A stretch of 64,000 bases of DNA from positions 868,001 through 932,000 of the forward strand of contig NZ_CP098415.1 in NCBI RefSeq assembly GCF_023702125.1, written 5' to 3'. The notes beneath the pieces were generated by a model. That model was not told the DNA's origin and ran no database searches. It saw only the letters and a list, made by a program, of their open reading frames with translations. A program made the translations under genes and the position numbers. Below are positions 49,154-51,234 of this stretch, one piece after another (positions within the stretch are counted from its first letter, which is position 1; each line of letters opens with the position of its first letter). Source of the DNA: Halorubrum hochsteinianum. Its GTDB lineage: Archaea; Halobacteriota; Halobacteria; Halobacteriales; Haloferacaceae.

Positions 49154-49893
49154 TGCGGGCCGACGTCGACGCCGACCCCGAGGCGAGCGGGGGCGCGGCG
49201 GAGTCCGACGCCGCCGACGCCGCGGGCGAGACCGACCGGGTCGAGCGCGCGCTCGACGCCTTCCGCGCCGGCGACCCCGTCTGCGTCCACGACTTCGCGG
49301 ACCGCGAGGGCGAGACGGACATCGTCTACCCGGCCGCCGCGGTCGACGAGGCCGCGGTCGCGCACATGCGCAACGACGCCGGCGGACTGATCTGCGTGGC
49401 CGTGAGCGACGCGGTCGGCGACGCGTTCGACCTGCCGTTCCTCGCGGACGCGCTCGACCACCCCGCGGTCGACGACGACCCCGACTACGACGACCGCTCC
49501 TCGTTCTCGCTGCCGGTGAACCACCGCGACACGTTCACCGGGATCACCGACGCGGACCGCGCGCTGACCATCGTCGAGGTGGCGAAGGCGGCCGCCCGGG
49601 TCAGCGAGGACCCGACCGGCTACGGTCCGGAGGACTTCGCCGCGGAGTTCCGCGCGCCCGGCCACGTCCACGTGCTCCGGGGCGACCGCGACGGTCTCGC
49701 CGGGCGGACCGGCCACACCGAACTCGGCCTCGCGATGGCCGAGGCCGTGGGGACCGCGCCCGCCGCCGTGGTCTGTGAAATGCTCGACGACGAGACCGGC
49801 GACGCGCTCTCGCCCGCGGACGCCGCGGCCTACGCGACCCGGCGCGACATCCCCTACGTCGAGGGCGCGGCCCTCGTCGAGGCGCTGCGCTGA
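49153..49893 (+). CDS. ribB: 3,4-dihydroxy-2-butanone 4-phosphate synthase RibB
   Basis: A 246-residue magnesium enzyme that converts ribulose 5-phosphate to 3,4-dihydroxy-2-butanone 4-phosphate, the four-carbon precursor of lumazine and riboflavin. It carries DPVCVHDFADREGETDIVYPA with the catalytic acidic loop (EGETD) and NDAGGLICVAV, and ends in the substrate-closing region. The first 35 residues are an acidic extension. The TGATG overlap with rbkR places it under the RbkR-riboflavin switch. There is no GTP cyclohydrolase fusion. Confidence 0.93.
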   Translation: MRADVDADPEASGGAAESDAADAAGETDRVERALDAFRAGDPVCVHDFADREGETDIVYPAAAVDEAAVAHMRNDAGGLICVAVSDAVGDAFDLPFLADALDHPAVDDDPDYDDRSSFSLPVNHRDTFTGITDADRALTIVEVAKAAARVSEDPTGYGPEDFAAEFRAPGHVHVLRGDRDGLAGRTGHTELGLAMAEAVGTAPAAVVCEMLDDETGDALSPADAAAYATRRDIPYVEGAALVEALR

Positions 49894-50006
49894 CGGCGGG
49901 GAAACGCCACGCGGCCGACCGATTTCCGCCACGAAATCATCCCTGACCAGCCGGTCCGGCGCGCGCCTCCGAGGCCGCACCGCGGCCGAGGAGTGCGTGC
50001 GAGGGA

Positions 50007-50193
50007 GTCGCTGGCGGCCAGAGCGGAGCGACGGCCGCCAGCGACGAGGCTGGGGAGGCGTGAGGTGCTGTGCGGTGCTGGGTGGGACTCAAAGGGGCAG
50101 CCGCGAGGCCGTCGTAGGCGATGTAAGCACCACAGGGAGCGAGTGAAGCGAGCGACCGAGGAGCGCAGCGAGCGTACGACGGCCTCGCGGCTG
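50007..50193. ncRNA. Candidate structured RNA or dispersed hairpin element
   Basis: Two perfect inverted repeats: 13 bp (50007-50019 with 50033-50045, loop 13 bases) and 19 bp (50098-50116 with 50175-50193, loop 58 bases). The large hairpin is flanked by aaaggggc and ggggctttgg, which extend pairing across an internal loop. The loop carries purine-rich gagcga words in both halves. I have the impression that similar elements recur between genes of other haloarchaeal genomes, but that is unverified. It could be a REP-like element or a structured RNA; the strand of any transcript is unknown. Confidence 0.5.
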
Positions 50194-50274
50194 GGGCTTT
50201 GGCGGTGTTCACCGTCGATCCCTCAGCGGAGTCTGACTCGCCCCCTCGCGGCAGTCCCCGGCCGGTTGTTACAG

Positions 50275-50304: not shown

Positions 50305-51234
50305 ATGGGATTCGACGAGATGGACGTCGACACGATCTGGAAGAACGGGGAGTTCCTCGACTGGGAGGACGCGACGACGCACGTCCTCACCCACGCGCTT
50401 CACTACGGGAGCGGCGTGTTCGAGGGCGTCCGCTGTTACGACACCGAGCGGGGCCCCGCCGTCTTCCGCTGGGACGAACACCTCGACCGGCTGTTCGACT
50501 CCGCGAAGATGTACGACATGGACATCGAGCACTCCCGCGAGGAGATCACCGAGGCCACCCTCGAACTGCTCGACCGGCAGGATCTTGAGTCCTGTTACAT
50601 CCGGCCGATCGCCTACTACGGGTACGACACGCTGGGGGTCTCGCCGAAGGACTGCCCGACCGACCTCGTCCTCGCGGCGTGGCCGTGGGGCGCGTACCTC
50701 GGCGAGGAGGCGCTCGAAGAGGGCGTCGACGTGATGGTCTCCTCGTGGCGGAAGCACGCCTCCTCGCAGGTCCCGACGAACGTGAAGACGACCGGCCTGT
50801 ACGTCAACTCCATGCTCGCGGGCGAGGAGGCGCGCCGGAACGGCTACGTCGAGGCGATCGTCCTCAACAAGGAGGGCAACGTCGCGGAGGGGCCGGGCGA
50901 GAACATCTTCATGGTGAACGACGGGGAGATCTACACCACCGGCCCCGCGCAGTCCATCCTCGAAGGGATCACCCGCGACACCGTGATCACCCTCGCGGAG
51001 GAGCGCGGCTACGAGGTCCACGACGAGGCCGTCATCTCTCGGGGTCAGCTGTACACCGCCGACGAGCTGTTCTTCACCGGCTCCGCCGCGGAGGTCACCC
51101 CGATCCGCTCGGTCGACGACACCGAGATCGGCGCGGGCACCCGCGGGCCGGTGACCGAGGAGCTCCAGCAGGCCTTCTTCGATCTCGTCGAGCGGCGGAC
51201 GGACGACCACGACGAGTGGTTCACGTACCTCTAA
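50305..51234 (+). CDS. ilvE: Branched-chain amino acid aminotransferase IlvE
   Basis: A 309-residue fold-type IV PLP enzyme that interconverts leucine, isoleucine and valine with their keto acids, the last step of their synthesis. It starts MGFDEMDVDTIWKNGEFLDW and shows ALHYGSGVFEGVRCY, the phosphate-cup EGPGENIFMV and the turn YTADELFFTGSAAEVTPI; the PLP lysine lies in the KTTGLYVNSM region. The length is normal. A well-placed TTTTAAG suggests its own leaderless promoter immediately after the paired-hairpin element. Confidence 0.95.
   Translation: MGFDEMDVDTIWKNGEFLDWEDATTHVLTHALHYGSGVFEGVRCYDTERGPAVFRWDEHLDRLFDSAKMYDMDIEHSREEITEATLELLDRQDLESCYIRPIAYYGYDTLGVSPKDCPTDLVLAAWPWGAYLGEEALEEGVDVMVSSWRKHASSQVPTNVKTTGLYVNSMLAGEEARRNGYVEAIVLNKEGNVAEGPGENIFMVNDGEIYTTGPAQSILEGITRDTVITLAEERGYEVHDEAVISRGQLYTADELFFTGSAAEVTPIRSVDDTEIGAGTRGPVTEELQQAFFDLVERRTDDHDEWFTYL

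Follow-up and report, generated by a model that had tools for sequence, protein, structure and literature searches.

What are the two strong hairpins that lie between a pair of metabolic genes in Halorubrum hochsteinianum, and do they serve those genes or something of their own? The window, which is the whole stretch of DNA that was analysed, comprises 64 000 nt of the chromosome (NZ_CP098415.1), and the coordinates of the element are window positions. The upstream gene stops at 49893 and the downstream gene begins at 50305; their names, ribB and ilvE, respectively, are the putative labels of an initial annotation that was made from the letters of the window. This annotation had described two perfect inverted repeats of 13 and 19 bp, and both are present (13 bp arms at 50007-50019 and 50033-50045; 19 bp stem at 50098-50116 and 50175-50193). 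The 19 bp stem sits within a 30 nt pair with 87% complementarity (50090-50119 and 50172-50201), and its outer pairing does run on past a purine loop as had been suggested, with CAAAG (50090-50094) facing CTTTG (50197-50201) across a GGG/GGG internal loop. When the window was tiled in 300-base pieces, the longest perfect stem was a 16 bp piece of the 19 bp stem, in the tile starting at 50101, and the second longest (13 bp) was tied among three tiles. Relative to shuffled sequences, the folding energy gave z = -6.4 (+ strand) and -5.9 (- strand) as RNA, and -4.6 (+ strand) and -4.9 (- strand) as DNA.

The extent originally proposed stood only in part: both hairpins are real, but the match to the covariance model described below covers 49958-50201 and adds another hairpin, 5' of these two, at 49958-50000. 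The element is thus a + strand unit of ~244 nt in which three hairpins are joined by conserved G-rich linkers (Table 1). Within the linker between stem B and domain C (50046-50089), CGAGGCTGGGGAGG is invariant in 64 copies. Copies in other genera of the family correspond to domain C. The GCGGTGTTCACCG tail opens, in other copies, a tandem repeat unit of ~57 bp with a TATA-like motif, which the window copy lacks. At L065, L067, L013 and L009 such ~57 bp units downstream are repeats of the element's 3' end, often with the TATA-like motif; they are similar within one locus and differ between loci. Comparable 3' units of another period were seen at L322, L332 and L339.

Table 1. Parts of the element in the window, in 5' to 3' order.
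Feature	Window positions	Strand	Description
5' edge	49952-49957	+	Consensus TGCGGT, just outside stem A; conserved (position frequencies in 119 full-length copies)
Stem A	49958-50000	+	Outer helix GGCGCGCGCCTCC / GGAGTGCGTGC, then a tandem G.A step, then the inner hairpin GGCCGC-ACC-GCGGCC
Linker GAGGGA	50001-50006	+	Unpaired; conserved, near-invariant across 64 aligned copies
Stem B	50007-50045	+	13 bp hairpin, loop AGAGCGGAGCGAC; helix 3, 6/6 counted pairs changed on both sides
G-rich linker GAGGCTGGGGAGGCGTGAGG...GGGTGGGACT	50046-50089	+	G tracts at 50080-50082 and 50084-50086
Domain C	50090-50201	+	Basal helix CAAAG/CTTTG, GGG/GGG internal loop (50095-50097 / 50194-50196), 19 bp stem; helices 5 and 6
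Inner arm of domain C	50117-50174	+	Short G-C steps, tandem G.A mismatches, short terminal loop; helices 7-10
3' tail GCGGTGTTCACCG	50202-50214	+	Conserved

The initial annotation had the impression that similar elements recur in haloarchaeal genomes, and this is amply borne out. A BLAST search of the genome with 50000-50200 returned 40 scored matches of 79-100% identity. With a covariance model built from 64 copies, and loci counted at E <= 1e-5, the genome, far from lacking a second copy, holds 124 distinct chromosomal loci; by rough arithmetic, about 1% of the chromosome consists of this one structured repeat. No locus was found with the model on the 101 kb second contig, a plasmid (4.2 expected, P = 0.014). 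Scores grade continuously from 235 down to 42 bits, a spread that copies of different ages would be expected to give. The element is matched in all 52 Halorubrum genomes. The genome G021 gives at least 150 covariance-model matches, and an exact 16-base pattern searched against GTDB contigs falls mostly in Halorubrum, with a few exceptions that are due to chance or to near relatives. Across the family the model matches 21 of 28 genera (110 of 148 genomes), and across the whole class 52 of 65 genera (141 of 194 genomes). The class-wide matches are mostly unverified, those in other families being model counts alone; the model is loose and its weak matches perhaps reflect any long hairpin. Inspection by eye of loci in 12 genomes from 12 other genera of the family verified 27 core copies in 11 of these genomes, i.e. 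in 11 other genera. With variations, they share the pattern GGG-N-GGGA-(~7 nt)-GGGG-stem-GACGCAAGCACCGCAGG-...-GAGGAGCGCAGCGAG-stem-GGGGCTTTC, and several of them lack domains A and B. The core occurs on few large plasmids, and neither DNA searches nor exact core patterns found it in phage records or IMG/VR.

The stems of these copies covary. The consensus structure of the 64 aligned copies has 63 pairs, 36 of which show changes on both sides. Here cells are copies counted, not independent events: 98.0% of the cells are paired (86.3 +/- 0.3% in shuffles), a percentage that is inflated by the choice of intact copies by pattern, and 461 cells carry double changes (139 in shuffles), a count that this choice leaves unaffected. 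The covariation score is 0.345, compared with 0.139 in the shuffled control, and in a second control, in which the partners were slid, pairing falls to 28-43%. Double changes are found in stem A (counted as helix 1, with 17 pairs, ten of them changed on both sides, and 97.8% of cells paired) and in the inner arm of domain C (12 of 14 pairs in helices 7-10). They are absent from two of the ten helices (columns 61-66/166-170 and 105-109/115-119), which are unsupported. In domain C, alignment columns 171 and 282 form G-C in 35 copies and A-T in 29, with G.T in none. Many copies with covarying stems were what the initial annotation had named as support for a family, as opposed to an isolated structure with no covariation among relatives; the former was decisively found, far above both controls. 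The letters vary freely between copies while the fold of one strand is kept.

The mismatches indicate which strand this is. In the 54 pairs of the supported helices, + strand mismatches are G.T in 99 cells and A.C in 15 (about six to one); counted by pair, the figures are 27 and 11 (P = 0.014). Read on the + strand, GNA triloops (30) also outnumber those of the reverse type (12). From both asymmetries the + strand appears to be the folding strand. The G.T excess argues against a cruciform or palindrome correction, both of which would treat the two strands equally.

Placement was surveyed at 37 loci in 744 kb of the same chromosome, with genes called by a simple codon model. All 37 are intergenic: 18 between co-directional genes (12 against and six with the gene direction), 12 between convergent genes, which are expected to make up 13% of gaps (P = 0.002), and seven between divergent genes. 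These counts indicate that copies avoid genes and probably steer clear of promoters, with little regard for gene direction. No special link to ribB or ilvE is supported, the orientation of neighbours being near random. The window copy does lie in the intergenic space ahead of the ilvE promoter, as had been noted, but this placement is incidental. Close pairs (<2.5 kb) mostly run + then -, with their 3' ends inward (8/9 in the own genome, G000, and, as we read its matches, 8/11 in G021). Those of G000 (contig C1) lie at ~126.6k, 698.5k, 1233.6k, 1370.8k, 1634.4k, 2503.9k, 2638.6k and 2818.3k (loci L352-L359). The pairs flank one or a few ordinary-looking metabolic genes, some common to both species, which from their sequences we take to include cysteinyl-tRNA synthetase, HisA and methionine sulfoxide reductase. 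Pairs flank hisA, cysS and a ThuA-like/thioredoxin-like stretch in both genomes. Composite transposons were considered for these inverted pairs and rejected, as the enclosed genes are ordinary and include no transposases.

Comparison with the relatives G024 and G045 shows that positions outlast sequences. Over aligned segments, DNA identity to the own genome is 91% for G045 and 88% for G024. Of 13 own loci whose flanks could be mapped, 12 carry the element in G045 as well, in equal orientation in 12/12; in the reverse comparison it is present in the own genome at 13 of 18 mapped loci of G045, and in G024 it is present at eight of 14 mapped own loci. At the ilvE site most of the relatives inspected have the element or a remnant and several have none. 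In another genome, G004, an IS1341-type TnpB gene replaces the element upstream of ilvE (L081). The flanks of orthologous copies can be aligned, although the copies themselves resemble each other no more than random ones: similarity is 0.705 for 17 orthologous pairs, 0.682 for non-orthologous copies and 0.688 for paralogues. Subfamilies are typical of genomes, the basal helix being CGAAG/CTTCG in nearly all own copies and CAAAG/CTTTG in the window copy and most G024 copies. As judged from these alignments, the same place without extra likeness, together with genome-typical subfamilies, indicates that the sequence at fixed positions is rewritten, by what would be concerted evolution or repeated replacement. 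The family offers a testable case of fixed positions at which the structure persists and the sequence turns over. Copies have been lost or gained between these species, as empty sites show, and the species are too diverged for exact ends or a target duplication to be read. At locus 106214 of G045 (joined stretch), where the element follows a stop codon, the gene ends in TTATAA; at the corresponding empty site of G024 it ends in CTGTAA. The filled site thus has a TATA-like motif at the usual distance before the element.

The explanation that we favour, and to which we would give about half of our confidence, is that the family consists of non-autonomous dispersed repeats that are spread or homogenised through a folded + strand. 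The + strand, once single, would fold into up to three hairpins, with domain C as the conserved core and four G tracts meeting at its base. A putative cellular enzyme would recognise this fold and either copy the element or convert one copy with another, the route being either that the folded strand transposes or that ectopic gene conversion is frequent. Old copies would be tolerated between genes. The fold would then serve the element's own spreading and homogenisation and would have no role for ribB or ilvE. The copy number on the chromosome, the absence from the plasmid, the intergenic placement, the presence or absence of copies between species, the genome-typical subfamilies, the low likeness of orthologous copies, the continuous grade of scores and the + strand bias all speak for this account. 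Against this stands the long retention of positions in constant orientation, which is more than expected for an active transposon, and the near-perfect pairing owes something to the choice of intact copies. The search for a driver also counts against it: no match to Y1_Tnp (PF01797, IS200/RAYT) was found in the own genome, whereas control genomes were positive, and no autonomous partner or partner gene emerged. The Y1 transposase was accordingly rejected as the driver; TnpB-type matches number four. In this respect the family is a lead to a putative enzyme with folded single strands as its substrate, in a genome where no Y1 transposase was detected.

The initial annotation knew of no named family, and none was found. 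No Rfam family matches the window copy, even with the threshold relaxed to E = 1, or any of seven loci from other genera at gathering scores. The only useful neighbours in the literature searched were the Haloquadratum repeats, the HF2 promoter repeats and papers on archaeal quadruplexes. The family, with its relatives in other haloarchaeal genera, appears to be undescribed in these sources, and differs from SMR-A and PATE as these are described. SMR-A of Haloquadratum walsbyi is a non-coding repeat of ~110 bp with inverted arms and up to 54 copies, commonly >95% alike within a type, that targets PATE/IS605 palindromes; no target duplications are reported, its mode of movement is unknown and it is absent from the large plasmid PL100 (PMC3119063). 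'SwitchRepeats', different repeats at an identical position, are listed in the same paper (PMC3119063). Our element is likewise short, non-coding, repeated many times with inverted arms and missing from a plasmid; in other genera its core copies measure ~115-130 nt and have inverted arms. It differs, on the same descriptive basis, in its ~244 nt full length, strong covariation, G-rich linkers and occurrence in most Halobacteria tested. PATE palindromes match those of IS605-type transposons (PMC3119063). The element shares with PATE a haloarchaeal, non-coding and palindromic nature, heterogeneous sequences and no clear terminal repeats; unlike PATE, it resides in a genome with only four TnpB-type matches and no Y1 transposase detected. 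A MITE would be marked by terminal inverted repeats like those of a transposon and by a target-site duplication, and the empty sites compared yielded no resolved duplication. REPs are single hairpins of 20-40 nt tied to the RAYT (Y1) enzyme. Numerous dispersed intergenic palindromes and inverted pairs recall REP/BIME, but the three-hairpin unit, its size and the missing RAYT do not, and the earlier label 'REP-like' is not supported in the sense of REP proper. Core copies at L340 and L351, in other genera, are paired head-to-head tens of bases apart, like BIMEs. In integron attC sites and IS200/IS605 ends structure outweighs sequence and one strand folds; the element seems analogous in both, and differs in having no linked integrase or Y1 gene found and many copies without cassettes. 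In behaviour, then, it resembles REP, PATE and SMR with demonstrated membership of none, and it may represent a novel kind of dispersed genetic element.

An RNA account, in which the copies form a cellular structured RNA family, are each transcribed from the + strand and act in cis or in trans, has an appreciable but minor chance of being the better one. A strand-specific fold with compensatory changes that tolerates G.T, and unpaired linkers that are invariant, would both be natural for RNA, and such a family would be among the most numerous structured RNAs of archaea. Other features point away from it. Hairpin loops in the 5' part comprise 83 triloops and 20 tetraloops, with no GNRA or UNCG among the latter, so that RNA-stable loops are avoided; GNA triloops are very stable in DNA. 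G.U makes up 3.0% of pairs in the element and 5.7% in tRNA stems of the same genomes. Loops and wobble thus lean towards single-stranded DNA, while leaving room for RNA. Orientation has no tie to neighbouring genes. On the side of an RNA, a TATA-like motif lies shortly 5' of the element in 52 of 119 copies, mostly at a single fixed distance. A -26 spacing is reported for haloarchaeal promoters (PMC8707807), and if it holds transcription would start inside stem A. No TATA-like motif occurs within 160 nt downstream of the 27 core copies of other genera. On these two grounds the motif was rejected as the promoter of the element.

It is rather unlikely, in our estimation, that the element is instead a maintained chromosomal site, in which G tracts and hairpins form a recombination or replication-pausing site that is itself a conversion hot spot; a quadruplex-duplex fold would form in molar potassium and be kept at fixed places. 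The haloarchaeal cytoplasm is rich in potassium. The four G tracts of the core are kept in Halorubrum and in other genera: the linker tracts GGGTGGG and the two facing GGGG of stem C are retained in copies, and both linker tracts have at least three G in 103 of 119 copies under a strict pattern. Meeting at one junction, the four tracts could stack as a quadruplex on two helices, although quadruplex formation is itself deduced from the letters. Haloferax volcanii has been reported to contain quadruplexes (PMC12873603). Retained position with replaced sequence and absence from the plasmid would also suit a maintained site, as would the element at one breakpoint of each of two inversions between G000 and G045 (own 681.8k and 848.7k); the element may give rise to inversions. 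Copies are more evenly spaced than random in one 744 kb region (P = 0.0002-0.0008) and across 0.2-1.78 Mb (P = 0.004), but their spacing is borderline over the whole chromosome (P = 0.055) and not clearly regular in a G045 region (CV ~0.83, a rough hand estimate). The many species-specific absences also speak against a maintained site. A bolder version, which we regard as doubtful, is that the element is older than the genus and is neither a transposon nor an RNA gene, but a strand-specific quadruplex-duplex fold at fixed sites, where ectopic gene conversion or replication restart would be concentrated; its own sequence would be rewritten repeatedly while place and shape stay.

Quasi-palindromes can be corrected by template switching of DNA polymerase during replication, and covariation could arise in this way by mutation alone, without selection. 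Triloop hairpins and near-perfect arms would fit. Such correction treats the strands alike, however, and is largely refuted by the asymmetry in G.T mismatches and GNA loops; with GGG/GGG and G.A mismatches kept and not corrected, and unpaired linkers invariant, we consider it very improbable. The intergenic position and strong hairpins would speak for an ordinary terminator, or an attenuator, lying between ribB and ilvE. This reading is hardly credible and as a general explanation is refuted by the near-random orientation of the ~124 copies (upstream gene co-oriented in only 18/37), there being also no T run after the stem and conserved linkers far beyond the need of a terminator.

Some copies show further features. 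Small hairpins (for example CCAGAGGGACC-TTC-GGTCCCTCGCTGG) are nested in stem A, B or C at L017, L022, L042, L044, L049, L077 and L153, and may represent a second family of hairpin repeats. At L060, L070 and L176 domain C carries its inner part in inverted orientation between the arms.
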